Part shown: piece after piece, positions 7,642 to 61,869 of the stretch
Layout: each line of letters opens with the position of its first letter
Numbering within the stretch: the first letter of the stretch is position 1
Source of the DNA: an uncultured Campylobacterales bacterium
GTDB taxonomy: Bacteria > Campylobacterota > Campylobacteria > Campylobacterales > Sulfurimonadaceae
DNA length: 64,000 bases
Direction: 5' to 3'
NCBI GenBank assembly: GCA_903892995.1
Contig: CAITKP010000024.1
Span: forward strand, 1 to 64,000
Notes under the pieces: generated by a model
What the model saw: only the letters and a program-made list of their open reading frames with translations
Told to the model about the DNA's origin: nothing
Databases searched by the model: none
Program-made: the position numbers and the translations under genes

Positions 7642-9420
7642 TTATTTTATAGTTTCAAGAAGCTCCAAAAAACGCTCGCCATAGCGTTCAAACTTCACTT
7701 CGCCCACACCGCTTACATGTAACATCTCTTCTTTATTTTTTGGCAAAGATTTTGCCATCTCTTTGAGCGTTTTATCTCCAAAGATGATGTAGGCTGGTTT
7801 GCTCTCCTCTTTGGCGATCTCGCCTCGAAGGGCTCTTAGTTGTTCAAAAACTTCTGAGTTTACATCTTCCTCTTTATGAACGACAAACTCTTTTTTCACC
7901 TTTACATCTAAGCGTTCCTCTTTGATGGAAACTTTGAGCTCATTTTTTAAGATCCGCATCCCTGCAACATCAAGCACCAAAGAGCGAAACTCTCCACGTT
8001 TTAAAGCGCCAAGCTCCATCAAACGCTCGCTCACACGCTCCCAATAGGTTTTTGATTTTTCTATACCGATCCCATAAACAGAAAGAGCATTATGATTATT
8101 ATCGAGTATCTTTTGCATAGAACTTCCACGAAGAACATCGATCACATAAGCCTGTCCAAAACTCTGATTTGTGCGATACACGCATGACAAAAACTTCTGC
8201 GCATCGAGAGTAATATCTGTTTTTTCACCCGCTTCTTCGGTACAGTTATCACACGCAGTAAGACAATTTTCGATCTCATCTTCAAAATAGGCTGCGATAA
8301 AATGATGACGGCACTCTTCCATACTCGCGTAACGGCTCATCTGCTCTATTTTATTGAAAGCATTTTGTTTATAGGGCGATTCTTCAAGCTGATCTATAAA
8401 CTCTCGCTGCATCACCGCATCAGCCCCGCTATACAAAAGCAGCACATCAGATTCCAATCCATCACGCCCCGCACGCCCGATCTCTTGATAATAATTTTCT
8501 ATCGTCTTTGGCAGATTCATGTGAACAACAAAACGGATATTGCTTTTATCGATTCCCATCCCAAAAGCGATGGTTGCGACCACCACTTGTATCTCATCTC
8601 GCACAAAAGCTTTAAAAGTATTTTCCTTTACATGTACGGGCAATCCTGCATGAAAAGCTCTAGCTTTGATGCCATTTGCGTGTAAAAAGACAGCCAAAGA
8701 TTCCGTCTGTTTTCTTGAAAAAGCATACACAATCCCGCTCTCATTTTTAAAGTTTTTCAAAAAATCAAGCAACTGTTTTTTGCCATCTTTTTCTCTTGAT
8801 TCCACGCTGATATGCAGATTTTTTCTAAATATTTTTCCACGCACTTCTAGGGGCTCGTTTAAACGAAGAGCGTATTTTATATCTTGTGCGACTTTTGGAG
8901 TCGCAGTTGCGGTAAAAGCAGCGATGGAAGTGCTGGGAAAATTTTCACGCAAAAGATTTAATTTTCTATAATCAACTCGAAACTCATGTCCCCATTCACT
9001 CACACAGTGCGCTTCATCGATAACAAAAAAATTGATTTTTATAGATTTTAAAAAGTTCACAAACTCAAAAGATGCAAAGCGCTCGGGTGCGACATAAAGC
9101 AGTTTGAGTTCGCCCTCAATAAGGCTTTGATAAATGCTAAAAATCTCCTCCTCGTTTTGCATCGAAGAGATCATCTGGGCTTTGATGCCGTTTGCTTTGA
9201 GTGCGCTTACTTGATCGTACATAAGAGCTAAAAGAGGAGAGACAACGACAGTTACTCCATCCATAAGCAATGAGGGAAGTTGATAACATAAAGATTTTCC
9301 TCCGCCTGTGGGGAGAATCATCAAAAGGTCTTGATTTGAGAGTATGGCATCGATCGCCTTCTCTTGAAGCGGGCGAAAAGTGTCATACCCAAAATAGGAT
9401 TTTAATACCTTGTGTTTGAT
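7642..9420 (-). CDS. recQ: ATP-dependent DNA helicase RecQ, probable ATC start
   Basis: 3'-5' helicase of recombination repair. The frame encodes the RecQ N-terminal motif YFGYDTFRPLQEKAI, Walker A LPTGGGKS, VIDEAHCVSEWGHEFR, helicase motifs IAFGMGIDKS and QEIGRAGRDG, the zinc-binding cysteines CRHHF...CLTACDNC, the RQC region and a C-terminal HRDC domain. There is no ATG, GTG or TTG between the in-frame stop of trxC (9430-9432) and TTG at 9324, which would remove the conserved FGYDTFRP motif. An ATC at 9420 has AAAGG six bases upstream, so a non-canonical start there is the best fit. Alternatives are a TTG start giving a defective protein, or a sequencing error. Confidence 0.85.
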   Translation of the reverse strand: MKHKVLKSYFGYDTFRPLQEKAIDAILSNQDLLMILPTGGGKSLCYQLPSLLMDGVTVVVSPLLALMYDQVSALKANGIKAQMISSMQNEEEIFSIYQSLIEGELKLLYVAPERFASFEFVNFLKSIKINFFVIDEAHCVSEWGHEFRVDYRKLNLLRENFPSTSIAAFTATATPKVAQDIKYALRLNEPLEVRGKIFRKNLHISVESREKDGKKQLLDFLKNFKNESGIVYAFSRKQTESLAVFLHANGIKARAFHAGLPVHVKENTFKAFVRDEIQVVVATIAFGMGIDKSNIRFVVHMNLPKTIENYYQEIGRAGRDGLESDVLLLYSGADAVMQREFIDQLEESPYKQNAFNKIEQMSRYASMEECRHHFIAAYFEDEIENCLTACDNCTEEAGEKTDITLDAQKFLSCVYRTNQSFGQAYVIDVLRGSSMQKILDNNHNALSVYGIGIEKSKTYWERVSERLMELGALKRGEFRSLVLDVAGMRILKNELKVSIKEERLDVKVKKEFVVHKEEDVNSEVFEQLRALRGEIAKEESKPAYIIFGDKTLKEMAKSLPKNKEEMLHVSGVGEVKFERYGERFLELLETIK

Positions 9421-47504: not shown

Positions 47505-47529
47505 TTAAATTAATTGTAGAGTTAAAAGG

Positions 47530-47579
47530 TGGTGGCCAATCTCGGAATCGAACCAAGGACACAGTGATTTTCAGTCACT
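47530..47579 (-). pseudogene. 3' half of tRNA-Phe (GAA): island attachment-site fragment
   Basis: The reverse strand gives the complete anticodon arm AGTGACTGAAAATCACT (anticodon GAA), variable region, T arm CTTGGTTCGATTCCGAG, acceptor 3' strand ATTGGCC and encoded ACCA, but the D arm and 5' acceptor strand are missing and replaced by unrelated AT-rich sequence. A 3' tRNA half that ends at the anticodon arm is the usual scar of integration by a tyrosine integrase. An integrase gene lies 1.9 kb to the right. The functional tRNA-Phe would be at the other island end, not in this window. Confidence 0.88.
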
Positions 47580-47900
47580 TTTTGATTGTTTTTTAATAAA
47601 GCTTAATTGTTTATATATGTACATAAAATTACCTATTTTATGGACTTAAAGCCTAGTATTTGTTTTTTATTTACTTTTATACTATTGTACTCTTTTTTAA
47701 ATTTTGTAGTAAAAAATGTAGTAAAAAAATGTACAATTTTCAAACAAAAATTGAAAATAATATTTGGAAAGAATGATATAGTTTATATGTCATATGATGT
47801 ATAAATTATGCACTATTATTAAATATATTTAAGCTTTAATGTGCTAAAAAAGCATATTTAATACTTTTTCTATATAAATTACACTTAATTTAAATTAGTA
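47580..47900. other. AT-rich region upstream of abiE, with an inverted repeat
   Basis: About 320 bases without a convincing gene. It contains a perfect 10-bp inverted repeat, TATTAAATAT at 47817-47826 and ATATTTAATA at 47854-47863, located 38-84 bases before the AbiEi start. AbiEi antitoxins are known to repress their own promoter by binding inverted repeats, so this is a candidate operator. Only a short 65-codon frame with poor composition (47607-47804) is otherwise present. Confidence 0.45.
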
Positions 47901-48566
47901 ATGTATAATACTCCTATGAATATATATCAACTAAAAAAACTGATCAGATTAAATGTCTTTACAACTGAGATGATAAAACCTATCTTGGAACAAGAGTATC
48001 AAGAACCTATCAAAAAAATCAATAATATGGTTAAAAAAGGGGAATTGATACGCTTAAAAAGAGGTGTATATATTTTAGGAACAGAGTATAGAGACTATTC
48101 TCTGAATATGGTCACTATAGCCAATATGCTTCATAAACCCTCTTATGTATCCTATGAATATGCATTATCCTATCATGGTTTGATACCTGAGAGAGTATAT
48201 ACAGTTACTTCAGCTACTACATATCGCCCTGAAATATATACTACAGAAGTAGGTACATTTAGTTACAAAAAAATCCCATCTAAAGTGTACTCTTTAGGAA
48301 TTGACTGGAAATTTGATGAACATGATGGTGGCTATATGATCGCAACTGCTGAAAAAGCGTTATGCGATCTGGTTTACGCTGATCAAAGGATAGTTGGCAT
48401 AGATAAAGATGATATGTTAGAGTACCTCGAAGATGACCTCCGTATAGAATGGGAAGAACTGGAAAAATTAGATACAACTCTTCTTTGGAAAATCTCTATG
48501 GCATACTCATCTTCGAGATTACGAAATATGGCAGCAAGTATTAAAAAAAGGCAAAAAAATGGCTGA
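47901..48566 (+). CDS. AbiEi-type antitoxin and autorepressor
   Basis: 221 residues: N-terminal winged helix (VFTTEMIKPILEQEYQEPIKKINNMVKKGELIRLKRGVYIL split into helix and wing) and a central segment SYVSYEYALSYHGLIPERVYTVTSAT typical of the AbiEi family. C-terminal helices probably neutralise the toxin. It overlaps the toxin gene by eight bases. AbiE is a type IV toxin-antitoxin system that gives abortive phage resistance. An ATG five codons downstream is an alternative start. Confidence 0.88.
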   Translation: MYNTPMNIYQLKKLIRLNVFTTEMIKPILEQEYQEPIKKINNMVKKGELIRLKRGVYILGTEYRDYSLNMVTIANMLHKPSYVSYEYALSYHGLIPERVYTVTSATTYRPEIYTTEVGTFSYKKIPSKVYSLGIDWKFDEHDGGYMIATAEKALCDLVYADQRIVGIDKDDMLEYLEDDLRIEWEELEKLDTTLLWKISMAYSSSRLRNMAASIKKRQKNG

Positions 48567-49455
48567 TACACATCCACATATTACAGCAATGCTTCAAAAA
48601 TATGATCTTACTAAAGATGATCCATATGAAGCACTAAGAGAGATATTGCAAGAAATAGTTTTATATGCACTCAGTGATGCAGGTTTTTTTAACCATGCCG
48701 TATTTTATGGTGGTACAGCACTTAGAATATTATATGGTCTTCCAAGATTTTCCGAAGATCTTGATTTTTCACTACTAAAGCCAGATCCATCATTTGATCT
48801 TAGTAAATATGAAAAAGCGGTATTGGACACACTTTACACTTATGGATTTGAAGCTCAGGTTGAAACAAAGATCAAAGATCAGAGTGCAATACAATCAGCA
48901 TTTATAAAAGGTAATACAATAAAGCATCTTCTTGCTATTAACGCTCCTGAAGATATTGTAAAGAGTTTTAATGCAGGTAAAATATTAAAAATAAAATTTG
49001 AAGTAGATACCGAGCCTCCTATCAACTTTGAAGAGGAGCAAAAGCTACATTTAACTCCTGCACCATTTATGGTAAGAAGTATGAAACCCTCTTCATTGTT
49101 TGCAGGTAAGCTCCATGCAGTTTTATGTCGTGGATGGAAAACTAGACCAAAAGGGCGTGATTGGTATGATATGGTTTGGTATGTACAAAATGGGTATCAA
49201 GTCAATTTAACGCATCTTGCCACTCGGCTACTACAAAGCTGTAAAGCTCTAGAAGAAGCAGAGATAGAGTTGCCAAACACACTTGAGCAATATAATCAGA
49301 AAATAGTAGTTGGTTTACTTCAACAAAGAGTTGAGTCATTAGACATTGAATTGGCAAAGAAAGATGTCCGCCGTTTTATCTATGATGAAAAAGAGTTAGA
49401 AATATGGAGTAAGGATTTTTTCTCAAGCTTAATTCAAATGATCAAGTTTCAATAA
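48559..49455 (+). CDS. AbiEii-type nucleotidyltransferase toxin
   Basis: 298 residues. The nucleotidyltransferase motif FYGGTALRILYGLPRFSEDLDFSL (read as GGTALR and RFSEDLDF), the lysine in SSLFAGKLHAVLCR and the GRDWYDMVWY motif are the four AbiEii signature elements; all key residues are present. AbiEii-type toxins transfer nucleotides to tRNA ends or other targets and halt growth. It is the second gene of the abiE pair, 13 bases upstream of the integrase gene. Confidence 0.9.
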   Translation: MADTHPHITAMLQKYDLTKDDPYEALREILQEIVLYALSDAGFFNHAVFYGGTALRILYGLPRFSEDLDFSLLKPDPSFDLSKYEKAVLDTLYTYGFEAQVETKIKDQSAIQSAFIKGNTIKHLLAINAPEDIVKSFNAGKILKIKFEVDTEPPINFEEEQKLHLTPAPFMVRSMKPSSLFAGKLHAVLCRGWKTRPKGRDWYDMVWYVQNGYQVNLTHLATRLLQSCKALEEAEIELPNTLEQYNQKIVVGLLQQRVESLDIELAKKDVRRFIYDEKELEIWSKDFFSSLIQMIKFQ

Positions 49456-49468
49456 AAGGTTTCTAATT

Positions 49469-50575
49469 ATGGCACTAAAACCAGCTGGTGGAAAATATGA
49501 TGGTGTGTGGGTCAATGAACTCAAAAATGGCAATACAGCATATTATATAAACTACCGTGATGAAAATGGAAAACCCGTTAAGAAAAAAGTCGGAGTTAAA
49601 ACAAAGCAGTCCAATTTTACAGTTAAAGATGCTTATGATCGTCTCATACAAACTAAGCATTATTTATCAACTGGACAAGAAACTCCTTTCCAATCACAAC
49701 GCTCAAAAAAATTTACTTTTGCAGATTCATGGGAATCTTATTTTTTATGGGCTAAAGCCAACAAAAAAACTTATATGAAAGATGAAGAATATTATCGTCT
49801 TCATATTTCACCCGTTTTTGCCAACAAGGAAGTCAAAAAAATCAAGTCGAGTGATATTGAAACCTTCAAACAGTCCTATCTTGAAAGAGGCTTTGCCAAC
49901 CAATCAACCAAACATTATATTGGTCTTATCCGCCATGTAATAAATCATGCTATCAAGAATGATCTTATCTCCAACTATACTAACCCAATAAGCGCTGGCA
50001 AAGTCAAACTTCCAACAATTGATAATGCTCGACAAGCATTTCTCACTAAAGAGCAAGCAGAAGCTATTTTAAGTGAATTGAGCCAATACGATAATGATTT
50101 ACTATATCAGATTACCATCATGCTCCTATATACAGGAGCAAGGTTTGGAGAGATCGTTGATTTAACATGGAGCAATATCAATTTTGAAACCAATATGATC
50201 TATTTTAAATCCACAAAAAATGGAAATGCGCGATGGATCAGTATGCATAAACTTGTTAGAAAGGTTGTGCTTGAGCTTATAAAACAGAAAAAAAGTAATT
50301 TTATATTTCTAAATACTTTAGGAGAAAAACTAAATCGTCTTTCAAAAACTTGGCAAATCGTTGTGGATAATGTCATAGATGGAAATATTAATGCTGATCC
50401 AAAACAAAGAATTACTATTCATAGCTTGCGCCACACACATGCGAGTTGGCTTGCGATGAGAGGACTTGATATTTTACATATCAAAGAACAACTTGGACAT
50501 AAAACATTGGATATGACAATGCGATATGCTCACCTTATTCCAAACAAACGGCATGAAGCAACAGAACTGCTTTAA
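49469..50575 (+). CDS. Tyrosine integrase of the island
   Basis: 368 residues. N-terminal arm-binding domain (GGKYDGVWVNELKNGNTAYYINYRD in two strands), a SAM-like core-binding domain and a catalytic domain with Arg in YTGARFGEIV, Lys in STKNGNAR, HSLRHTHAS, His in LGHKTL and Tyr in MRYAHL; all catalytic residues are intact. The type is that of phage and genomic-island integrases that use tRNA genes. It lies 1.9 kb from the tRNA-Phe fragment and probably inserted this island. No excisionase gene was recognised next to it. Confidence 0.93.
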   Translation: MALKPAGGKYDGVWVNELKNGNTAYYINYRDENGKPVKKKVGVKTKQSNFTVKDAYDRLIQTKHYLSTGQETPFQSQRSKKFTFADSWESYFLWAKANKKTYMKDEEYYRLHISPVFANKEVKKIKSSDIETFKQSYLERGFANQSTKHYIGLIRHVINHAIKNDLISNYTNPISAGKVKLPTIDNARQAFLTKEQAEAILSELSQYDNDLLYQITIMLLYTGARFGEIVDLTWSNINFETNMIYFKSTKNGNARWISMHKLVRKVVLELIKQKKSNFIFLNTLGEKLNRLSKTWQIVVDNVIDGNINADPKQRITIHSLRHTHASWLAMRGLDILHIKEQLGHKTLDMTMRYAHLIPNKRHEATELL

Positions 50576-50737
50576 ATAAAAAAAGTGATATTTTTTTACT
50601 CAACTAATTTTTATTTTTAAGGGAAAAAACCGCTTCTTCCCAATTTGTTCTACTTATTAATGATATTTTTTTTTATATTTTATTAAATATTACCTTTTTT
50701 CAAATCAGGCAAAAAATTTTCAAAACCATTATACTTT

Positions 50738-50860
50738 CCCCATGATTATTCAACGGGGTACCAAGTGCGTTTAAACACTCCCGAAAAGGAATACAGTCTC
50801 TTTGACTGTCGGATGCCTCCCGGCATCCCGTTGAGTAATTTCACGGGAACACTTGGTGCC
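50738..50860 (+). ncRNA. Candidate structured RNA or folded DNA site
   Basis: A GC-richer block in AT-rich surroundings, full of nested inverted repeats: CCCC/GGGG (50738-50758), an outer 11-bp stem GGTACCAAGTG (50757-50767) with CACTTGGTGCC (50850-50860, one G-T pair), and inside it ACAGTC/GACTGT (50793-50809), GGATGCC/GGCATCC (50811-50828) and CCCG/CGGG (50827-50847). The layout is a closed multi-branch fold. I do not recognise the family. A short frame (50765-50971) overlaps it but looks incidental. It could be a non-coding RNA starting a transcript that ends at 51339, or an origin of transfer. Confidence 0.5.
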
Positions 50861-51300
50861 TGCTTCCCTTTACTCTTCTTACCATTGTTAAAAAATGATA
50901 GGCGTGTCATTAAGCGTCTGGTGATAGTATATATCTTAATCATGTTCATCATAATCTCTGCTCATGATTAGTACCAAGGATATAGAAAAAATAGTAGAAA
51001 TTAATGCAGTTGCGGCTGACTCTCACATGGAAACAAAAAGGGGGATCGACTACACGTAGATATTCGTGTCAAAGAAGAACTTTGATATAACGGGCGCTGT
51101 AGTATGAAGTTATGCACTCATCACCTTCCCACATCACGACCTAAATCCAAGACTCTCACATATTGGACAAGGAACAAGCTGTACAGTACAACCGACAGTT
51201 GATTAGATGTGCTCTAACCGAGCGTGTAAAAGGCAAAGAGGCAGTTCGACGAGCAATCGAAACGACGGAATTATAACATAAATTGAAAAGTTATAAAACC
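50861..51300 (+). other. Hairpin-rich tract with decayed or unrecognised coding content
   Basis: No intact gene. Short hairpins: TAATCATG/CATGATTA (50937-50970), ACACG/CGTGT (about 51052-51069), TCAAAG/CTTTGA (51069-51085) and TTATAAC/GTTATAA (about 51272-51297). Three frames have protein-like stretches that are not continuous: one from ATG 50966 reading MISTKDIEKIVEINAVAADS and SKKNFDITGAVV with an internal stop, one reading YALITFPHHDLNPRLS, and one reading AVQYNRQLIRCALTERV to a stop near 51275. They may be pieces of one broken gene or chance. I cannot name it. Confidence 0.35.
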
Positions 51301-51315
51301 CGATATCCCCGAAGT

Positions 51316-51339
51316 ATGCCCAATTTTTTGGGTATTTTT
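51316..51339 (+). terminator. Rho-independent terminator
   Basis: ATGCCCAA TTTT TTGGGTAT forms an eight-pair stem (one G-T) with a four-base loop followed by TTTT. It would end a plus-strand transcript through the structured region, and its complement has A/T content that may also serve the minus-strand ygjP operon before the resolvase unit was inserted. Confidence 0.7.
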
Positions 51340-51344
51340 CAGCC

Positions 51345-51381
51345 CTTCTCTCAGCCACTCCTCGCTACTCACTCTGGAATT
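51345..51381. repeat. Left copy of a 37-bp direct repeat flanking the serine recombinase
   Basis: CTTCTCTCAGCCACTCCTCG... matches 52353-52389 over 37 bases with one mismatch (G versus C in CTC[G/C]CTACTCAC). It directly follows the terminator at 51316-51339. Together the two copies bracket about 970 bp containing the recombinase gene. Confidence 0.88.
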
Positions 51382-51400
51382 CTTATATTTTTTCAAGCAC

Positions 51401-51444
51401 TTCTCATGACACAACCTTCAATATTAAAAGCTCTGTCATGAGAA
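51401..51444. repeat. 11-bp perfect inverted repeat
   Basis: TTCTCATGACA at 51401-51411 and TGTCATGAGAA at 51434-51444 are perfect reverse complements separated by 22 bases. It lies just inside the left 37-bp repeat, downstream of the serine recombinase. It could be a recombination site, an operator or part of a terminator; no T-run follows. Confidence 0.6.
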
Positions 51445-51563
51445 AATTCTTTTTTATGTTTTACACTGCGTATTTGAAGATTAATTTCTTGACGAAACGA
51501 CTTTTAAATCGACAGATCTCTTTTCATGAATTACTCCTAAATCTTGAATTAAAAATTGTAGTA

Positions 51564-52118
51564 CTATATGCGTTTGAGCGTATCAATCAATGTCGATCTC
51601 TTCACACCAAACGTTCTACAAACAGCAGCTTTGCTCATACCACCAGATAACGCCTCTTGAATTATCAATAGTTTTTCATCATCAATCGCTTTTGGTCTAC
51701 CACCAATCTTACCTCTTGCTCTTGCAGAATCTAAACCGGCTTTTACACGTTGCTGTATCAAACTTCTTTCAAATTGGGCTAATGCACCAAAGATATGAAA
51801 AAATAGTTCACCACTCGGTGTGCTTGTATCCATCCCCTCAGTTAGTGATACAAATGAAATACCTCTTTCTTTTAAAGTGTTGATGATTGAAATTAAGTGA
51901 GCAAGACTTCTTCCAAGACGATCAAGTTTCCAAACAACAAGCGTATCTCCAGTTTGCAAAAAATCTAAGGCTTGCGATAAACCCTCTCTTGTATCTTTAG
52001 AGCCAGAGATTTGATCTTCAAAAATATTTCTGCTATCAATCCCATAAGATAAAAGAGCATCTTTTTGTAATTGAGTTGATTGTTCTTCAGTGGAAACGCG
52101 CATATATCCAATTAGCAT
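51564..52118 (-). CDS. Serine recombinase (resolvase/invertase family)
   Basis: 184 residues. Catalytic Ser in IGYMRVSTEEQ, conserved Arg residues in VVWKLDRLGRS, the long E-helix segment GALAQFERSLIQQRVKAGLDSARARGKIGGRP and a C-terminal helix-turn-helix (SGGMSKAAVCRTFGVKRSTL). Size and order are those of Hin/Pin/Tn3-resolvase small serine recombinases. It lies alone inside a unit bounded by 37-bp direct repeats; palindromic sequences that could be its recombination sites lie upstream at 52134-52250. Confidence 0.93.
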   Translation of the reverse strand: MLIGYMRVSTEEQSTQLQKDALLSYGIDSRNIFEDQISGSKDTREGLSQALDFLQTGDTLVVWKLDRLGRSLAHLISIINTLKERGISFVSLTEGMDTSTPSGELFFHIFGALAQFERSLIQQRVKAGLDSARARGKIGGRPKAIDDEKLLIIQEALSGGMSKAAVCRTFGVKRSTLIDTLKRI

Positions 52119-52133
52119 ACGGAAAACCTCTAT

Positions 52134-52250
52134 TATAATGTTTTCGTATTATATCATATTCCGACATAGTTTTTCGTCTATTTTATGAGGTTGTTTTTGA
52201 AGTTTTTAATCATGAAAGCTTATGTGTCGGAAAACAAATGTTTTTCGGCA
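52134..52250. promoter_or_regulatory. Candidate res-like recombination site/promoter region of the serine recombinase
   Basis: Upstream of the recombinase start lie TTCCGACA (about 52161) and TGTCGGAA (about 52223), a perfect 8-bp inverted pair about 55 bp apart, together with AT-rich half-sites such as TTTTCGTATTATATCA. Small serine recombinases commonly bind several such dyads next to their own gene and regulate it. The assignment is by position and symmetry only. Confidence 0.45.
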
Positions 52251-52352
52251 TGCAGTTTTTGTAAATAATCGAAGAACTTGCTCAAACACTAATGAATTTT
52301 TCAGCCATATACGACTAATCTAAATTTGCTCGGCGATTTTTCTGAAAGCACA

Positions 52353-52389
52353 CTTCTCTCAGCCACTCCTCCCTACTCACTCTGGAATT
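52353..52389. repeat. Right copy of the 37-bp direct repeat
   Basis: Same 37 bases as 51345-51381 with one mismatch. It begins three bases beyond the stop codon of the ygjP-like gene, so the original downstream end of the defence operon was probably split here by the recombinase unit. Confidence 0.88.
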
Positions 52390-52392
52390 TAT

Positions 52393-53088
52393 TTAGACCA
52401 TCTTTTCCAATTTCATTTTACGTCGTTCCCAATCTGGCATCTTTCGTTGCAACAGATCGTAGAAAGCTTTGCTATGATCATGAAAAAGCAGATGGCACAG
52501 TTCATGTGTCATAACGTAATCAATGCACGCTTTAGGCGCTTTAATAAGATTAATATTGAGTGTGAGCGTCCCTGATTTTGCTAAGCTTCCCCACCTTTTT
52601 TCAAGTTTCTTAACAACAATTTTCGGTGGTATAAGTCTCAACTCTTCAAACATTTTCCAGCACCGTTGAAAACTCTGATTAAAATGTTCGGTAGCTTTTT
52701 GCCGATACCACCGTTCCAACATGTTTCGCACCTTGGTCGTATCCGAATCACGAATAGATACAATCAGGTTGCCTCCATTTATTTTAACCCCTTTCCCCTC
52801 ACTGATAACTCGTAAACGGTACCTTCGACCTAGATAGAGATGCGATTCTCCTCCGATGTATTGTCGAGAAGCTTCTTTTGGATGATACTGTGCAAAAAAA
52901 TCTTGTTGTTTTGATATCCATCGTACTCTTTTGAGGACTTTTTTATTGATTGCTTCGATTGATGTTTCAAGTGGTGCTTTGACAACAACTTTCATATCGG
53001 GATGTACAGATATAGCCATAGTTCTTCTCTGCACATACTCCACATCATAAGTGATACATCGCTCACCATAACAAACCGTCTGCATCAA
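52393..53088 (-). CDS. YgjP/DUF45-type zinc metallopeptidase
   Basis: 231 residues. The C-terminal half has the zinc motif MTHELCHLLFHDHS (HExxH) and the preceding KRWGSLAKSGTLTLNINLIKAP segment that defines the YgjP-like (DUF45, SprT-like) family; the N-terminal part is a beta-rich region (RTMAISVHPDMKVVVKAP). Such genes are frequent companions of type I hsdR genes, with unknown role. The start overlaps the hsdR stop by four bases, making it the last gene of the defence operon. Confidence 0.88.
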   Translation of the reverse strand: MMQTVCYGERCITYDVEYVQRRTMAISVHPDMKVVVKAPLETSIEAINKKVLKRVRWISKQQDFFAQYHPKEASRQYIGGESHLYLGRRYRLRVISEGKGVKINGGNLIVSIRDSDTTKVRNMLERWYRQKATEHFNQSFQRCWKMFEELRLIPPKIVVKKLEKRWGSLAKSGTLTLNINLIKAPKACIDYVMTHELCHLLFHDHSKAFYDLLQRKMPDWERRKMKLEKMV

Positions 53089-56000
53089 GGCATCCTGTGT
53101 TTAGCAACTTGCATCGTTTTTTCGATAATAGTGTCCATTTGCTCGGTTGATAAATCAATATTTTTTGCTTCTTTGACTTCATCAAAAAGGTAGTCATCAA
53201 TTTCATTGATTGCTTTATTAACAGCATTTGTATCATCCCAAAACTGCACTTTGTAATGTTTATTGATTATGGCGTCAATCCATAATGCAGTATCGGCTGC
53301 AACTACATCATCACCAATAAACGTTTTAATCACACCGAAGTATGCGGCTGCGTTGTCATTACCCTCAATATTAACTGGGATTCCCTCATGTTTTTTAGTC
53401 GCAACAGTATCACGTAAATCCATCACCTTCCCGAGGTATTCCAGATCTGATATCCGTTTAGCTTTGAATGCATCGATAGCTTCTTGTATCAGCTTAGAAA
53501 ACTTCTCGTAAAACGCTGGATCTTCTTCCATTTTTTCGATTACTGTTTTAATGGTGGCATGCGCGATCATATCCGCTTTTGCCGCAGTGGTTTTTGCATT
53601 GTGGATACCACGTCCCTCTTTCATCTCATTAAACATCTGCTCATCGAAGATATTGACAGGCTCATTGAGTTGAATCACTTCATTAGCCTGAATCTGCGTA
53701 TCGAGAAGCTTTTTAATACGTGGTTCATACTCACGATAGTTGATTGTTTCAGCATATCGAAGCTTTACGCTCTTTTTGAGATTTTCAAATCGTCTCAAAT
53801 CATCTTTATACATACGAATTCGATGTTCTGGAGTTTCCATAACAAATTTTTCACTGGATAATGCAATCGCAAGTGTTTTAGCAAATTCATTCAAACAATC
53901 ATAGAATTTATCCCGCTTAGTTACATCTCCCAATAGTTGCTCATATGCTTCTTCATCTTTAGAGTTTTTGACCTCTTTAAAGATATCCCAGAGATTTGAA
54001 TGATGCTGAGGAAGCTTGGCAACTTCTTCATTGATAGACGTCAGAGTTCCAGCCAAATCTTGTGCATCAAATCCATCTAATCCAGCATCTTTATACATCG
54101 TAAGCGCCTGATCGAGTTCACCAAGGACGCTTACATAATCAACGATATATCCAAAGTCTTTACCGTCTGCAAGACGATTAACACGAGCGATTGCTTGCAG
54201 AAGTGTATGTTCACGCAATATCCGACATAGATAAAGAACAGCATTGTTTGGTGCATCAAATCCAGTGAGGAGTTTATCGACGACGATCAGGATTTCAGGA
54301 CTCTCACCGTTTTTAAACTGATTGATAATCTGTTTTGTATACTCTTCCTCACTACCGTATCGCTTCATCATTTTTTGCCAAAATTTGACTACTTCGTCGG
54401 TTGGTTCATCATCGACACTTTCAAACCCCTCACGCATGTCAGGACCGGAAATAATCACTCCAGATGTAACCACACCCAGTTCATTTAAATACTCTTGATA
54501 TTTGAGAGCGGCTACTTTTCCCGGAGCAACTAATTGCGCTTTAAATCCGCTCCCCTGCCAATTAGCACGATAGTGTTCACTAATGTCAAAAGAGCGCATA
54601 TATATTACTTGATTTGTTTTATTGAGCATTTCTGCACGGGCATATTTACGTTTTAGATCGGCCTTTTGTTCTTTAGTAAGCCCCTCTGTATGACGTTCAA
54701 ACCACAGATCAATAGCTGCTTTGTTTTGCTCCATCTCGACATGCCGTCCCTCATAAAGCAGCGGTACGACAGCACCGTCTTCAACTGCCTGCGTAATAGA
54801 GTAATGAGGATCAATCAGAGAACCGAATTTATTAAAATTGTTTTTCTCTTTTTTGAGTAATGGAGTTCCCGTAAATCCGAGATAACAGGCGTTAGGAAAC
54901 ATCTGTCGCATACGTGCCGCGAATGATCCAAAGTTTGAGCGGTGACTTTCATCGATCAGCATAAAAATATCAGGTGAATCATCTTGAATTTTTTTAACAT
55001 TGAGCGCTTTATCAAACTTGTGGATCAGCGTCGTCACAATGCCGGCTTGTTTTTCTGCAACGAGTTCGAGAAGATTTCGGCCCGATGTCGCGCGGGAAGC
55101 ATCCAGTCCACATGCCACAAAAGTATTAGAGAGTTGTTTGTCCAAATCGTCACGGTCGGTAATCAAAATGATACGTGGGTTGGGAATGCCTTGCTCCATT
55201 ACGAGCGATCTGGCTAACATCACCATTGTGAGCGATTTCCCTGATCCTTGCGTATGCCAGATGACACCACCCTCTCGTTTACCATCATGGATATTTTTAA
55301 CCCGTTGTAACGTCGATTTTATGACGAAATACTGCTGATACCGAGCAATCTTCTTAATCCCTCCATCAAAGAGGGTAAAACGATATGCCAGATCCAACAA
55401 CCGCTCAGGTGAACAAAGGGCATGAATAGTACGATCCTGTTCCGTAACAGCTCTTTCCCCTTCGCCCTCCAGTGCATCGAAATAACCCCGAGCTTTTTCA
55501 AAATCTCCCGAAAACAACACCGATTTTTCACTCTCTATAAGTTGAGTATTAACTATCTTTGATACTGTTTCATCAGTAAATATCTGTTCTTTCCATACCG
55601 CCCAGAATTTTTTTGGTGTTCCGGTCGTTGCATAAAGAGCACTGTTTTTATTGACTGCCAATACCATTTGTACTGTAGTAAAGAGTTTAGGGATGTAGTC
55701 ATCATTTTGGTTCCGGATATTTTGGCTAATAGCCTGATCGACTTCGACTTTAGGCGATTTGCACTCGATGACGCACAATGGTATTCCATTGACAAACAAA
55801 ACGATATCAGGACGTGCGGTTTCAGTAGAACGATTACGTTCTACACTGTATTCAGCCGTAACATGGTAGGTATTGTTCTGCGGATTTTTCCAGTCGATAT
55901 ACTGCAACGTAAAACTCTTACTGTCACCCTCGATATTCTGCTCTAATGCCGTCCCCAATGTCAGCAAATCATAAACCGATTCATTGGTTTTTAACAAACC

Positions 56001-56270
56001 ATCATATTTGATATTTTTGAGTTTTTGGACAGCAGCTTGAATGTTTTCTTCACTAAAGAGATAAATTCCACCTTTGTAATTGATTCGATTCATCCGCTTT
56101 AGACTCTCTCGGAGGATGTTTTCGAGCAGAACATTTGATGTCTTCCCCTGTCGCTCACGCGAAGCATCTTCAGGGCTCAAATAAGTATACCCTAGCGTAA
56201 TAAGCTGTTGAAGAGCGGGGATTTGAGAAAGGTATTCTTCATTGAAAGCAAAGGCAATATTTATAGACAT
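53085..56270 (-). CDS. hsdR: Type I restriction endonuclease subunit R
   Basis: 1061 residues, full length. PD-(D/E)xK nuclease in RPDIVLFVNGIPLCVIECKSP (Asp, then ECK), superfamily 2 translocase with Walker A HTQGSGKSLTM, DExH-type LIDESHRSN, LGFTGTPLL and LTGFDAPN...LLQAIARVNR, and a helical C-terminus that docks on the methylase. HsdR translocates and cuts unmethylated DNA in the HsdR2M2S complex. It overlaps the SLATT gene by ten bases and ygjP by four. Confidence 0.95.
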   Translation of the reverse strand: MSINIAFAFNEEYLSQIPALQQLITLGYTYLSPEDASRERQGKTSNVLLENILRESLKRMNRINYKGGIYLFSEENIQAAVQKLKNIKYDGLLKTNESVYDLLTLGTALEQNIEGDSKSFTLQYIDWKNPQNNTYHVTAEYSVERNRSTETARPDIVLFVNGIPLCVIECKSPKVEVDQAISQNIRNQNDDYIPKLFTTVQMVLAVNKNSALYATTGTPKKFWAVWKEQIFTDETVSKIVNTQLIESEKSVLFSGDFEKARGYFDALEGEGERAVTEQDRTIHALCSPERLLDLAYRFTLFDGGIKKIARYQQYFVIKSTLQRVKNIHDGKREGGVIWHTQGSGKSLTMVMLARSLVMEQGIPNPRIILITDRDDLDKQLSNTFVACGLDASRATSGRNLLELVAEKQAGIVTTLIHKFDKALNVKKIQDDSPDIFMLIDESHRSNFGSFAARMRQMFPNACYLGFTGTPLLKKEKNNFNKFGSLIDPHYSITQAVEDGAVVPLLYEGRHVEMEQNKAAIDLWFERHTEGLTKEQKADLKRKYARAEMLNKTNQVIYMRSFDISEHYRANWQGSGFKAQLVAPGKVAALKYQEYLNELGVVTSGVIISGPDMREGFESVDDEPTDEVVKFWQKMMKRYGSEEEYTKQIINQFKNGESPEILIVVDKLLTGFDAPNNAVLYLCRILREHTLLQAIARVNRLADGKDFGYIVDYVSVLGELDQALTMYKDAGLDGFDAQDLAGTLTSINEEVAKLPQHHSNLWDIFKEVKNSKDEEAYEQLLGDVTKRDKFYDCLNEFAKTLAIALSSEKFVMETPEHRIRMYKDDLRRFENLKKSVKLRYAETINYREYEPRIKKLLDTQIQANEVIQLNEPVNIFDEQMFNEMKEGRGIHNAKTTAAKADMIAHATIKTVIEKMEEDPAFYEKFSKLIQEAIDAFKAKRISDLEYLGKVMDLRDTVATKKHEGIPVNIEGNDNAAAYFGVIKTFIGDDVVAADTALWIDAIINKHYKVQFWDDTNAVNKAINEIDDYLFDEVKEAKNIDLSTEQMDTIIEKTMQVAKHRMP

Positions 56271-56851
56271 GGCACAACCTCCTTGATTACATAAACTATG
56301 ACGGTGATTACAATAATTCCAAACGCTACATAGGCACTAAAAGGGATTTTGTCTCGCCATAATTTGAAATGTTTTTGTTCATCTATCCAATCAATCTGAT
56401 GTTGCCAAAAAAACTTCATATGAGCATACCAATCACTAAACATGATTTGTTTTGTAATTGCATTTGCATAATATCTACTTTCAATACTTTGAAGCTCTTG
56501 TTGCTCTTGGCTCAAATCATTTCCATTAAAAGCTTTTACACGATAATAAAGTGTTTTGAGCTCATTAAACAGTTGAGTTAAGAGTATGCCTTTTTCTTTA
56601 TACTGTTTTTTTTCACTGTTGTACATTGATATGTACATTCCGATAACGCCGAACACGGCTAAAAGTGCTGAAACGGTTTTGCTGCTCAAAGAATCAAGAT
56701 AGAGTGCAAAAATCCCTATTGCCATCGAAATAAATCCGATGAGGCCAGGAATTTTTTCTACGATGTCATAAGTCGCAAAATGTTTTTTTGCCCCAAACCC
56801 TACATTGTATGCAGTGTCCGTAATCGATTTAAGTAAATCTTGTTTGTTCAT
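56261..56851 (-). CDS. SLATT-domain membrane protein (predicted CBASS effector)
   Basis: 196 residues. Two close hydrophobic helices (about 34-50 and 58-76: GLIGFISMAIGIFALYL and SALLAVFGVIGMYISMY), a long amphipathic helical region and one more C-terminal helix (YVAFGIIVITVIVYVI). This is the SLATT architecture (SMODS- and SLOG-associating 2TM effector), thought to form membrane pores when triggered by a nucleotide signal. It lies 15 bases after the CD-NTase gene. Assignment from architecture and neighbour; strong in combination. Confidence 0.8.
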   Translation of the reverse strand: MNKQDLLKSITDTAYNVGFGAKKHFATYDIVEKIPGLIGFISMAIGIFALYLDSLSSKTVSALLAVFGVIGMYISMYNSEKKQYKEKGILLTQLFNELKTLYYRVKAFNGNDLSQEQQELQSIESRYYANAITKQIMFSDWYAHMKFFWQHQIDWIDEQKHFKLWRDKIPFSAYVAFGIIVITVIVYVIKEVVPCL

Positions 56852-56866: not shown

Positions 56867-58165
56867 TTACTGAATTGGTACTTCAATGGTATCTCTTGCA
56901 ACAACAACATCATTTTTAACTACATAACACTCGACTATATGTTCACCTCTGAATAATGTACTCTCATCTTTTTGCTGTTTTCCCATATCTCTAATAATTT
57001 GACCCCGAATCTGGTCTCTTTGTCTTGCCATTTCACCAACATTCAATACTTTCCAAAATACTTCATATGGCTCAGCTACATCTATTTTTTCTACCTTGAA
57101 TACAAGTTGTTTGTTCGGAGAAAGTCTAATTCCTCTTAATAACATGTTGGCCAGGGTATTTTCTCTAAATCCGTTTTGTGTAATCTCACAATCTATTTCG
57201 AGGTTATAGCGAATATCAACAGGATATTTATCTTCTATAAACTCTTCTGTATTTTTCCAAGATTGTGCAGCTTTTGTTACACTATCTTGTGCAACTGTAG
57301 ATACAGAAGATGGGAAAGGTCTTCCAAAGATTTTTTTCCATTTCGTATTAACACTTTGAAGATTTTCTGCTGCAATAGCCTCCAAAGATAAATCATAGGC
57401 TTTTTTTGCTTTTTTCTGAAATTTCTTTTTCACTTTGACATGTTGTCTACTGCCAGGTGCTAAATAATAGTCTTGATTAGGCTGGCTTGAAGCATAAAGA
57501 AAAAAATCTCTAACCATCCAATCATAATAAGTATAGCTTTTATCATCATATTCAGTAGTTGAATTCAAAAAATTATAGGCAAGAGTATCAATCAGCATTC
57601 CACTCATAGCAACACCATGTTTATTTTTCCATGCACGAATCATTTTACATAAAGGTCGTAAATTTCCATTTTTCGCCTTATCCATGTCAGATACTGCCTT
57701 AATCTCTAAACGAGGCTTTGTAATTGGCCAACTGCCACCATTATTGGTATCAGGATATTTAAAACTACCATCACTTTGTTCAAATGCAGGCAATACCTCT
57801 ATATCATGACTTGTAAAAGAAATCACAACTACTTGACCATCTCCCCATATTTCCGTTCGGGAAAAGTGTCCTATATCTTTGAGTGTATTTTTTATTTCTT
57901 GAAGTAAAGCAGATTGCTTGTCATCTTTGAACTTCTCCCATTGATTTGACGGTAACATATAAATCATATCTAGATCTGAAATGTTTTTTATAGCTGTATA
58001 TCTGCCGTATGAGCCAACTTGCAACGTATTAGCTGTTTCAGATTCTGAATTTCTATATTTTAGATTTAGTGCTTTTGTAATTTTCCCATATTGATCAGCG
58101 ATCTGTCTTTTATTGTCTATCTCGAGATTGCCAATAAACTGTTTAAACATGTCAGAAATACTCAT
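56867..58165 (-). CDS. CD-NTase with C-terminal AGS-C sensor (SMODS, CBASS-like)
   Basis: 432 residues from the ATG at 58165, which overlaps the hsdS stop (ATGA); the frame opens five codons earlier. Nucleotidyltransferase motif GSYGRYTAI at G51-S52, catalytic Asp residues D64 and D66 in SDLDMIYML and D121 in SHDIEVLPAF. The last 125 residues match AGS-C: FWKVLNVGEMARQRDQIRG and STLFRGEHIVECYVV. CD-NTases with AGS-C make cyclic oligonucleotides on phage infection and activate a partner effector, here most likely the SLATT protein. No Cap2/Cap3 or HORMA/TRIP13 genes are present. Confidence 0.9.
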   Translation of the reverse strand: MSISDMFKQFIGNLEIDNKRQIADQYGKITKALNLKYRNSESETANTLQVGSYGRYTAIKNISDLDMIYMLPSNQWEKFKDDKQSALLQEIKNTLKDIGHFSRTEIWGDGQVVVISFTSHDIEVLPAFEQSDGSFKYPDTNNGGSWPITKPRLEIKAVSDMDKAKNGNLRPLCKMIRAWKNKHGVAMSGMLIDTLAYNFLNSTTEYDDKSYTYYDWMVRDFFLYASSQPNQDYYLAPGSRQHVKVKKKFQKKAKKAYDLSLEAIAAENLQSVNTKWKKIFGRPFPSSVSTVAQDSVTKAAQSWKNTEEFIEDKYPVDIRYNLEIDCEITQNGFRENTLANMLLRGIRLSPNKQLVFKVEKIDVAEPYEVFWKVLNVGEMARQRDQIRGQIIRDMGKQQKDESTLFRGEHIVECYVVKNDVVVARDTIEVPIQ

Positions 58166-59298
58166 CCCGCTACCCGCCATTCCCCGTTTAAAAGTTTCTG
58201 CATAAGTCCCCGTTTTTGAACACGATACGATGCGACAAGCTTTTTAAGTAGATCAATTTCTCGTTTAGCTGTATTAAGAATTTCAGCAATTTTGCTTTGC
58301 TGTACTTCATCCTTTGGGTATCTTATATGAAAATTCCCAAGAGCTTTTTTTTGTATATTGGGTAGTCCTGAGCCAACTCGAAGAGACATAATCGCTTTTT
58401 CATTAGCCTTGAGGTAATGGTAGAGATACTCTTGGTTAATTTGAACTTGTTTTAGCGCATAACAATGACCACCGCACCAAAAGTTTTGGGTCAGGTAACT
58501 GACGAAACCACATGAATTACCGCCTTCACTGATCGTAATAGTGTTTGCGTCTGTATTCCATTCATCAGTGTATCCAGATGCTTGTATACCGCCATTCAAT
58601 ACTGGATATATCGCATTTTCAATCATATCTGATCTACTAAGCTGCACGCCTTTACTAATGTCGCATACAGTTCCTAATTTGACTTCATTCCAGTTGTCGC
58701 TCTTTTGAAGACTCAAGAGCTTTTTACTTATTTCTTTAAAATACCGCTCTTTTGCCTCAATCAGCCGTTCAGTTGTAGCTATAGTTTGATTCATATTTTT
58801 CCCCACATTGGAAATAAATACCTGAATTTCATAAGATGGCAACCAAACTGGTATTTTTTCTACCGTAGTCTTAGTAATTTTAACCATAGTTGAACTTGTG
58901 CCTGAAGCTGACGCTTGTAAATACTTAATAGCTTTTGGTGAACGAAGATAAAATTCTAAATATTCAGAATAAATTTTTGTTTCATCTACCCGAAATTTCA
59001 TCATCAAATCGGGATAAGAACAATTTTCAATTTCACCTCTATATAATATAGAACGACCAACCTTATCCAAAGTATTAGAACGACTAATTAAAAAATCTCC
59101 GTGTTTTAAAAGAAATCTTTCTACTGTTTTGTCATTTAAAGGAGCTGGCTTTTTTCCATCCGTATTAATTCCATTATCCGTAAGAGCTCCAAGTCCTAGG
59201 ATCCACACACCGTTTGGTTCATCAGGGCAAATTGGTGAGTAGCCATTTTGTATTGAAGTTGAAAGTAAAGTTTTAAGTTTAACTTCTCGGTTACTCAT
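58162..59298 (-). CDS. hsdS: Type I restriction-modification specificity subunit S
   Basis: 378 residues from the ATG at 59298 (the frame opens 16 codons earlier in the RhuM gene). Two target-recognition domains, each followed by a helical spacer: the first region LLSTSIQNGYSP...TTVEKIPVWLPSYEIQVF with a spacer at about 175-200 (TERLIEAKERYFKEISKKLL), the second NEVKLGTVCDISKG...KALGNFHIRYPKDEVQQSKIAEIL ending in a spacer and RVQKRGLMQKLLNGEWRVAG. It sets the DNA target of the HsdM2S methylase and HsdR complex. Confidence 0.92.
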   Translation of the reverse strand: MSNREVKLKTLLSTSIQNGYSPICPDEPNGVWILGLGALTDNGINTDGKKPAPLNDKTVERFLLKHGDFLISRSNTLDKVGRSILYRGEIENCSYPDLMMKFRVDETKIYSEYLEFYLRSPKAIKYLQASASGTSSTMVKITKTTVEKIPVWLPSYEIQVFISNVGKNMNQTIATTERLIEAKERYFKEISKKLLSLQKSDNWNEVKLGTVCDISKGVQLSRSDMIENAIYPVLNGGIQASGYTDEWNTDANTITISEGGNSCGFVSYLTQNFWCGGHCYALKQVQINQEYLYHYLKANEKAIMSLRVGSGLPNIQKKALGNFHIRYPKDEVQQSKIAEILNTAKREIDLLKKLVASYRVQKRGLMQKLLNGEWRVAG

Positions 59299-60319
59299 TG
59301 CCGCCACCTTTCTTCGGAAGTTTTGACAACTGTGCTTCCAGTTCATGGATTACTTCAGCATCTTCTATATCAGCAGTAATTTGCGCTACTTTACGTCGGT
59401 TGGCATCAAAAACATCATAACGCTCCAACGCAAGCCGCTCAGCAACATCGGCGCGAAGTTTTCCGGCATGTGTCAAAATTTCTCGTTCGTTAAAACGTAA
59501 GAATGCATCGAGTTTTTCTTCCCATTCGTTCATTGTTACCGTCTTGCGGCGTTTTGCCTGATCTTCTGCATACTCCAGATACATCGTGACGACGCGATTA
59601 AGTTCATCAAGCTCATCAGCATCAAGGTAGTTTTTTGAGATCGCAACATCTCCACGGCGAACTACTGCACCCTTCCAGCTTGTTAAGCCCATATTTGGTA
59701 ATGATGGGTCGGCACGCAGGTTAACCAGTTCAGCGGCTGTATGTCCTGTCACTGCCCAAATCATCTTATTCTGAACTTTTTTGAAAAAGAGTTGTGCCGA
59801 TTTAGACGTTTTGTCATAATCGACAGCCGTGGTATAAATATCTTTGATTTTTTGGTAAAACCGTTTTTCGCTGCTGCGAATATCACGGATTCTCTCTAAC
59901 AATTCATCGAAATAGTCCACACCACCGCCCGGCTCTTTGAGCCGAGCATCATCCATCGCGAAACCTTTTATCAGGTACTCTTTCAGCGTACTACCAGCCC
60001 ATTGCCGGAACTGTACCCCGCGATGTGAACGTACTCTAAATCCGATAGCCATAATCATGTCTAAATTATAATATTCGATATTCCGATTAACAGAGCGTTT
60101 GCCCTCTTGGCGAACTGTCAAGTGATACTTGACAGTTGCCTCTTTTATCAATTCGTTTTCGTCATATATTTTTTGGATATGAGAACTGATATTTTGTTTT
60201 GTGGTCTGAAATAATTCGGCTATGTCAATCTGATTCAGCCAAACACTCCCATCTTCCGCCCTTAACGAAACTTTTGATCCACCGTCTTCGGTCGTGTATA
60301 AAATGATTTCACTACTCAT
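59291..60319 (-). CDS. RhuM/virulence-family protein encoded within the hsd operon
   Basis: 342 residues. N-terminal winged-helix-like segment SVWLNQIDIAELFQTTKQNIS, then EGKRSVNRNIEYYNLDMIMAIGFRVRSHRGVQFRQWA, which is the RhuM family signature, and a C-terminal helical domain. RhuM genes are frequent passengers in type I restriction loci and pathogenicity islands; the function is unknown. It overlaps hsdM by four bases and hsdS by eight, so it is an integral part of the operon. Confidence 0.9.
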   Translation of the reverse strand: MSSEIILYTTEDGGSKVSLRAEDGSVWLNQIDIAELFQTTKQNISSHIQKIYDENELIKEATVKYHLTVRQEGKRSVNRNIEYYNLDMIMAIGFRVRSHRGVQFRQWAGSTLKEYLIKGFAMDDARLKEPGGGVDYFDELLERIRDIRSSEKRFYQKIKDIYTTAVDYDKTSKSAQLFFKKVQNKMIWAVTGHTAAELVNLRADPSLPNMGLTSWKGAVVRRGDVAISKNYLDADELDELNRVVTMYLEYAEDQAKRRKTVTMNEWEEKLDAFLRFNEREILTHAGKLRADVAERLALERYDVFDANRRKVAQITADIEDAEVIHELEAQLSKLPKKGGGNE

Positions 60320-61869
60320 AATCCCAATTCCTTGAGATGCTCTGCCATTTTTGCTCGTACTGCTACAAGTTCATTTTCGAGTACATCGATCTCAGATTGT
60401 ACGACTGCAATATCGATCGGAGCTTCCTCTTCGAAAGTATCGACATAACGAGATATATTGAGATTGTAGTCATTTTCAGCGATCTCTTCCATAGTCGCGA
60501 GATGGCTGTATTTATTAATTACTTCACGGTTTTTGTACGTGCTAACGATTTTGTCCAGATGCTCTTCGGTAAGGGTATTTTGGTTTTTACCACTTTGATA
60601 CTCACTACTCGCATCGATAAAAATAACATCTTTACGCATGTCATTCACTCCGCCACGTTCACGGCTTTTGTCAAAGATGAGAATAGCCACAGGAATAGAT
60701 GTCGATGGGAAAAGACCCGATGGCAATCCGATCACCGCATCAAGGAGATTATCTTCGATCATTTTTTGGCGTATTCGTCCTTCTGCTGCACCACGAAAGA
60801 GAACCCCATGTGGTACAACAACAGCAATACGCCCTTCTTTTTCAATCGCCGCCTCAACCATATGACTGATAAATGCAAAATCTCCCTTACTCTTAGGGGG
60901 AATACCACGCCAATAACGGTTAAATCGATCACTTTCTGCCTCTTCTGCACCCCACTTATCGAGCGAGAATGGAGGATTGGCAACTACAATGTCAAACTTC
61001 ATAAGTTTGTCTTGTTCTACCAATGCTGGCGACGTAAGCGTGTTACACCACTCAATACGTGCTGAGTCAAAACTATGCAAGAACATATTCATACGAGCCA
61101 ATGCCCATGTTGAACCATTCACCTCCATTCCAAAAAGAGCGAAATCATTTCCATCGATCTGACGTGCCGCTTCGATCAGCAATCCCGCTGATCCGCATGC
61201 TGGGTCACAAATACGATCTCCCGCTTTTGGGTTTGCCAATTTGGCAACCAGCTCAGAGACCTTATGTGGCGTGTAGAACTCTCCTGCCTTTTTACCTGCA
61301 TCGGCACCAAATCGTTCTATAAGATAGATATACGTGTTACCTATGACATCTTCACTGACACGATGTGGGCGAAGATCAAGCTGAGGCTTGTTGAAATCTT
61401 CCAAAAGCTGTTTAAGACGGCGATTACGGTCTTTTGCCTTACCGAGATTCGATTCGCTGTTGAAATCGATGTTGCGAAATACCCCTTCAAGTTTGAGTTT
61501 ATTCGCTTCTTCGATTGCATCGAGGACGATGTTGATGAGCTCACCGATATTGTTTTCATTTCGACGCTCAAGCAAACTGTAGTAGTTGGCTACAAATTTT
61601 TCGGTAACTTCACCCTCATCATCTTTTAGCTCAATGTAAGGGAGTAAGAATCGTTCACGTTCCAGTTTGCGACGGATACGGACATCATCATCCCCATATT
61701 GTTTTTGATACGTTTCATAATGGTCATTCCATACATCTGAAATGTATTTTAAAAAGAGCATAACTAGGATATAGTCTTTGTATTGAGAAGGGTCAACTGC
61801 ACCTCGAAAGGTATCGCATGCCGCCCATGCCGCATTATTAATGTCTTGTTGATGTAATTTTTCACTCAT
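60316..61869 (-). CDS. hsdM: Type I restriction-modification methyltransferase subunit M
   Basis: 517 residues. N-terminal helical HsdM domain (INNAAWAACDTFRGAVDPSQYKDYIL read in pieces), S-adenosylmethionine site DPACGSAGLLIEAA preceded by AGEFYTPHKVSELVA, and catalytic NPPFSLDKWG (NPPF) for N6-adenine methylation. C-terminal coiled helix. Together with HsdS it protects the host target sites. First full-length gene after the half-HsdS in the operon. Confidence 0.96.
   Translation of the reverse strand: MSEKLHQQDINNAAWAACDTFRGAVDPSQYKDYILVMLFLKYISDVWNDHYETYQKQYGDDDVRIRRKLERERFLLPYIELKDDEGEVTEKFVANYYSLLERRNENNIGELINIVLDAIEEANKLKLEGVFRNIDFNSESNLGKAKDRNRRLKQLLEDFNKPQLDLRPHRVSEDVIGNTYIYLIERFGADAGKKAGEFYTPHKVSELVAKLANPKAGDRICDPACGSAGLLIEAARQIDGNDFALFGMEVNGSTWALARMNMFLHSFDSARIEWCNTLTSPALVEQDKLMKFDIVVANPPFSLDKWGAEEAESDRFNRYWRGIPPKSKGDFAFISHMVEAAIEKEGRIAVVVPHGVLFRGAAEGRIRQKMIEDNLLDAVIGLPSGLFPSTSIPVAILIFDKSRERGGVNDMRKDVIFIDASSEYQSGKNQNTLTEEHLDKIVSTYKNREVINKYSHLATMEEIAENDYNLNISRYVDTFEEEAPIDIAVVQSEIDVLENELVAVRAKMAEHLKELGL

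Follow-up and report, generated by a model that had tools for sequence, protein, structure and literature searches.

Island setting and cargo of the locus

In the window, i.e. the whole stretch of 64,000 nucleotides analysed here, a 24-kb island begins at 47.5 kb (47527). It ends beyond the window, at 71.7 kb of the contig (71772), and is bounded by a 54-bp 3' half of tRNA-Phe and by whole tRNA-Phe genes. Within this island lies the predicted RNA described below, in the following surroundings.

47527-47580, - strand: tRNA-Phe 3' half, left island boundary; the identical 54 bp occur at contig 71719-71772 in a whole tRNA-Phe gene
47901-49455, + strand: AbiEi-AbiEii pair, cargo of the same island (PADLOC, AbiEi 9e-65, AbiEii 5e-105)
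49469-50575, + strand: gene of a 368-aa tyrosine integrase, immediately 5' of the RNA (Pfam Phage_integrase, 2.8e-28)
51345-51381, + strand: 37-bp last part of the RNA unit, repeated at 52353-52389 with 97% identity
51564-52118, - strand: gene of a 184-aa serine recombinase, flanked by the two 37-bp copies (Pfam Resolvase, 1e-47)
52353-52389, + strand: second copy of the 37-bp RNA 3' end, a direct repeat beyond the serine recombinase gene

The sequence-only reading had placed the region on an island beside an integrase, and this was confirmed by the tyrosine integrase at 49469-50575 and the tRNA-Phe repeats that bound the 24-kb island; the region is also not a known insertion-sequence end, the finding that would have spoken against that reading. 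Other genes of the island encode a type I restriction-modification system (HsdR 53085-56270, HsdM 60316-61869) and a CBASS-like cyclase (56867-58180) with a 2TM effector (56261-56851). The RNA 3' end was also considered as a general att site and rejected, as the 37-bp repeat was seen at the window locus only and at no other locus.

Conservation and predicted fold

The conserved non-coding unit, 50730-51381 on the + strand, was found across dozens of Sulfurimonadaceae genomes and in Sulfurospirillum, with RNA lengths of approximately 540 to 640 letters and 68-76% identity of the homologues to the window unit, many over about 600 bp. The region first delimited (50738-51339) is a real unit, but its limits shift slightly outward and extend past 51339. 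Its parts are listed here in order.

50730-50735, + strand: -10-like box TATACT, about 10 nt 5' of the fold, with TATNAT at the aligned place in homologues; putative promoter element
50745-50755, + strand: stem A, 5' arm ATTATTCAACG, partner of 50829-50839; in A3, 99.5% of cells pair
50757-50767, + strand: stem B, 5' arm GGTACCAAGTG, pairing with 50850-50860
50793-50809, + strand: extra hairpin ACAGTC/GACTGT inside the pseudoknot, in the window copy only, an insertion relative to homologues
50811-50828, + strand: inner hairpin D, GGATGCC/GGCATCC, directly 5' of the stem A 3' arm
50829-50839, + strand: stem A, 3' arm CGTTGAGTAAT, partner of 50745-50755
50850-50860, + strand: stem B, 3' arm CACTTGGTGCC, partner of 50757-50767
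50895-51275, + strand: RNA body, about 12 further conserved predicted helices with 28 two-sided pairs
51013-51206, + strand: most conserved core, basis of covariance model R1 (window match 152.9 bits, E 3e-39)
51300-51381, + strand: conserved 3' domain with CTCACTCTGGAATT at its end, the limit of homology; hairpin with a T-rich loop

Searched at the DNA level, the window's own family (228 genomes) gave matches in 34 genomes, many of them over about 600 bp with 69-76% identity and a few short and partial. R1 matched 25 of the 228 in a patchy distribution, as well as genomes of another family within the order. Named records among the matches belong to Sulfurimonas, Sulfuricurvum and Sulfurospirillum (S. 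cavolei UCH003), together with Campylobacterales bins. Laboratory strains with the RNA are S. cavolei UCH003 and Sulfurimonas indica NW8N. One further family of the order was gained when the 5' domain was added to the search, and a broader 5' model run on a sample of the phylum found no members outside the families already known to carry it. A Sulfurospirillum copy, from another family, shares 84% identity with a Sulfurimonas copy; no copy exceeds 77% identity to that of the window. Collections of plasmid and phage records gave no DNA match to the RNA.

The cluster of hairpins noticed in the letters alone proved real: 50738-50870 (133 nt) folds to -46.4 kcal/mol, compared with -32.2 +/- 3.9 for shuffles (z -3.6), and none of 200 shuffles was as good. 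The whole 603 nt folded alone are mildly unusual (z -1.9), and because this single-sequence signal is mild the case rests on the homologues. For 19 of these RNAalifold gave -75.3 kcal/mol vs. -39.5 +/- 5.3 for column shuffles, of which none of 40 was as good (best -52.4 kcal/mol), with two-sided compensatory changes in 34 of 107 predicted pairs, a number that reached at most 11 in shuffles. In a set of 90 chosen pairs, 97.6% of cells were paired vs. 34-43% with partners slid by 1-3 columns, and 32 pairs changed on both sides (0 of 500 shuffles as good). Pairing support is weak over the 3' 80 bp. The complement of the alignment folds to -59.9 kcal/mol, compared with -75.3 for the + strand; G-U cells in the named helices outnumber A-C cells by 159 to 8, which also favours a + strand RNA but serves as supporting evidence only, because the helices were chosen by a folding program that allows G-U. 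Homologues with abundant compensating substitutions, proposed earlier as the check, were thus found, and 50730-51381 is, as judged from these alignments, a folded RNA conserved on the + strand.

An H-type pseudoknot of two interlocked 11-bp stems, with inner hairpins in addition, is predicted for the "perfect hairpins" at 50745-50860. What had been described as a long outer stem enclosing a three-branch fold is replaced by these two interlocked stems, both of which covary: across 15 divergent members two-sided changes were seen in 3 of 11 pairs of stem A and in 8 of 10 pairs of stem B. The arms of stem B are fully rebuilt in genomes G104, G188 and G195, in G104 as GGTACTAATCAATC/GATTGATTAGTACC; stem A carries a C-G to U-A change in G680, and in G188 stems A and B are both rebuilt.

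No reading frame is conserved between homologues, and 250 of 272 indels among them are not multiples of three. The largest open reading frames inside the window unit are 68 aa long and lie in frames not common to the homologues, in agreement with the earlier statement that no intact gene is present. Four closely related copies do contain open frames of 115-116 aa, which could be taken for a degraded protein gene or a small-protein gene, but the frames differ from copy to copy and the indels break them, and we regard this explanation as extremely improbable; a coding reading of the window unit was rejected on the same disagreeing frames and frame-breaking indels.

The intrinsic terminator proposed at 51316 was not called by a scan; the hairpin and its T-rich loop are retained in homologues, mostly without a following T run, and no conserved terminator for the RNA was found among them. 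On the minus strand, a promoter-like site at 51297-51270 (TATAAT with a TG extension) reads antisense into the RNA. Its sequence is kept in most homologues, though the -10 is not intact in all, and just upstream there are AT-rich palindromes whose sequence varies.

Carriage by integrative elements and a phage region

The five-tRNA operon Pro-His-Arg-Arg-Leu was present in all of the 20 neighbourhoods first fetched, and in nearly all of them tRNA-Leu(UAG) is followed, after about 200-320 bp, by the RNA on the same strand. Other tRNA targets were tRNA-Leu(CAA) and tRNA-Asn, once each. The tRNA-Leu 3' half is repeated further downstream in G217, G084 and G088, where the elements so delimited, with the RNA inside, measure 5.6, 9.6 and 4.0 kb, respectively; in G194 tRNA-Leu and a repeat flank a first element, and a second one begins with the RNA. 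The S. cavolei RNA is likewise located downstream of a tRNA-Leu 3' remnant. In 12 genomes tested as lacking the RNA, the tRNA operon is present without it. Short direct repeats between tRNA and RNA resemble integrase arm sites. In most relatives the RNA is thus situated at the att end of integrative islands.

The window copy departs from this pattern. The tRNA-Leu site of its own genome is without the RNA, which instead is displaced from the att end and lies inside the tRNA-Phe defence island, its orientation being the reverse of that in G217, whose integrase faces the RNA 3' end. That the adjacent serine recombinase might have inverted the RNA was considered and discarded, no convincing inverted repeats being seen.

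No protein family is universal beside the RNA in the 22 neighbourhoods compared. Of the families downstream of it, type I restriction-modification is seen most often (7 loci), followed by a divergent tyrosine integrase (6) and another integrase (5). As to a possible retron, no gene family is common to all neighbourhoods, whose proteins were in part searched against family libraries. The integrase MRGSVYYQ was rejected as an obligate partner since many genomes have it but lack the RNA, and only part of the RNA loci contain it; co-transcription with a fixed downstream operon was rejected as well. The RNA might also be a cis-acting leader that regulates downstream genes of the element, such as an excisionase-like gene or the integrase, and in G226 a small ORF heading an X-Y-Z-integrase series indeed starts about 110 bp behind it. 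The next gene, however, varies between elements and is often on the opposite strand, which makes a leader function quite unlikely.

A copy in G144 (locus L144, about 7686-8241, minus strand) has a P22-like portal gene on one side and P22-like genes for scaffold and coat on the other, and is antisense to the late genes of this phage region. Viral contigs contained no exact-pattern match to the core, and a gapped pseudoknot pattern gave 46 chance-like matches there, none accepted as having both stems; the phage link of the RNA rests on this one genome.

At a second locus of G195 (contig 13, L142 5644-6640) the same 5' pseudoknot precedes a different body of about 900 nt, flanked by a tyrosine integrase and a TrwC relaxase. 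The earlier remark that no relaxase lies beside the region holds for the window, but not for this relative of the 5' domain, which is carried on a relaxase element. Relatives of the second body in G188 and G113 also begin with the pseudoknot; the loci with this second large RNA body are L142, L146 and L148. As the same 5' pseudoknot is found on different RNA bodies, the 5' domain behaves as a module. It is a tentative suggestion that the module is reusable and, occurring on at least two unrelated large bodies in islands, in a phage region and on a relaxase element, marks out a superfamily of RNA machines of mobile elements whose common function (e.g. assembly, host-factor capture or protection) is known from no other system.

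The location at att ends, the 5' domain on a relaxase element and the 37-bp repeat of the 3' end around the serine recombinase in the window would also suit a site acting at the DNA level, in transfer origin, recombination or packaging, with the hairpins formed in single-stranded DNA. Against such a site stand about 540 nt of elaborate covarying structure on one strand, with G-U but hardly any A-C pairs, and the -10 box conserved upstream, and we consider it very unlikely.

Relation to known RNAs and possible role

The Rfam search suggested from the letters alone returned no family for the window or its homologues: cmscan at E<=1 found nothing in window 48000-54000, and in 16 homologue loci it found tRNAs and weak chance matches only. 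No ROOL match was obtained at the same threshold in window 48000-54000 and 20 homologue loci. Transfer-messenger RNA, which has a tRNA-like domain and a tag frame, and RNase P RNA are likewise long, pseudoknotted RNAs with genes of their own, and islands commonly target tmRNA genes. Both were rejected as identities of the unit, since ARAGORN finds no tmRNA in the window, the genome's tmRNA being on another contig (C99), and RF00010 matches elsewhere in these genomes but not at this RNA. No paper on this large island RNA was found in the literature.

Large folded bacterial RNAs without known function, such as ROOL, GOLLD and OLE, are a standing puzzle, and characteristic of ROOL is an RNA-only octameric nanocage. 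ROOL (rumen-originating, ornate, large), of which one example has 659 nt, many helices and a pseudoknot, occurs on phages and prophages, often near tRNAs, and neither its protein partner nor its function is known (PMC12286853). GOLLD is a large structured RNA of phages and of prophages near tRNA islands, likewise of unknown function, and both ROOL and GOLLD form RNA-only complexes (PMC12286853). The island RNA resembles ROOL in being large, many-helixed, pseudoknotted and on mobile DNA near tRNAs; it differs in having no Rfam match, an unrelated sequence and a location mostly on Campylobacterota integrative islands. With GOLLD it shares large size, structure, mobility and proximity to tRNAs, but no Rfam family; GOLLD keeps its 3' region and varies the 5' part, whereas the island RNA shares the 5' pseudoknot and varies the body. 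We consider it comparable to these RNAs and not a member of either family; it may work in a similar way.

The main rival explanation concerns replication. The RNA II of ColE1 is a long structured RNA of a mobile replicon that primes replication at its 3' end and has an antisense RNA I. The island RNA is also long, structured and on mobile DNA, with a possible antisense partner, and it could prime or regulate plasmid-like replication of the excised element, an antisense RNA arising from the opposite-strand TATAAT near 51270. ParA-type genes adjoin the RNA in several elements, and in G085 (L098) the same att leader at tRNA-Leu is followed, in the place of the RNA, by a protein gene read as Rep-like, albeit by eye and not by family search. 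The promoter-like site of the minus strand fits an antisense RNA and is kept in most homologues, but its -10 is not intact in all. No homology to RNA II and no ori-like evidence were found, the 3' end is C/T-rich and not G-rich, and the RNA occurs in a phage region too. A role in replication or copy control therefore appears unlikely.

The reading we prefer, with a probability of roughly 0.6, is that window 50730-51381 is the gene of a large structured RNA that stands alone and resides on integrative mobile elements. It is in accordance with the sequence-only reading of an unrecognised structured, probably non-coding island RNA, now supported by homologues, compensating substitutions and the negative Rfam search. 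As for large structured RNAs of mobile elements in general, there is conserved covarying structure without a conserved frame, and carriage is seen in att repeats, several tRNA targets and a phage region. On our best reading the RNA would represent a new family of this kind, present in no RNA catalogue. It would be transcribed from its own sigma-70-like promoter in the integrated state of the element, as the conserved -10 box suggests, and the folded RNA itself would act for the element. It might serve as a scaffold or form an assembly, a role conceivable for ROOL and GOLLD in phages, or it might bind a host factor. Action via a partner protein is not expected because no protein gene accompanies the RNA everywhere.

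To the puzzle of the large RNAs this candidate family adds a tested consensus fold, a host range, and occurrence in a phage region as well as on integrative islands, and the 5' pseudoknot common to different bodies offers a handle for finding function. The RNA also marks att ends of islands, many with defence genes, in Campylobacterota that are sulfur-oxidising. At three loci (L033 8975-10150, L041 10808-11958, L122 1808-3209) a conserved run of small ORFs, family unassigned, lies between the RNA and the divergent tyrosine integrase.
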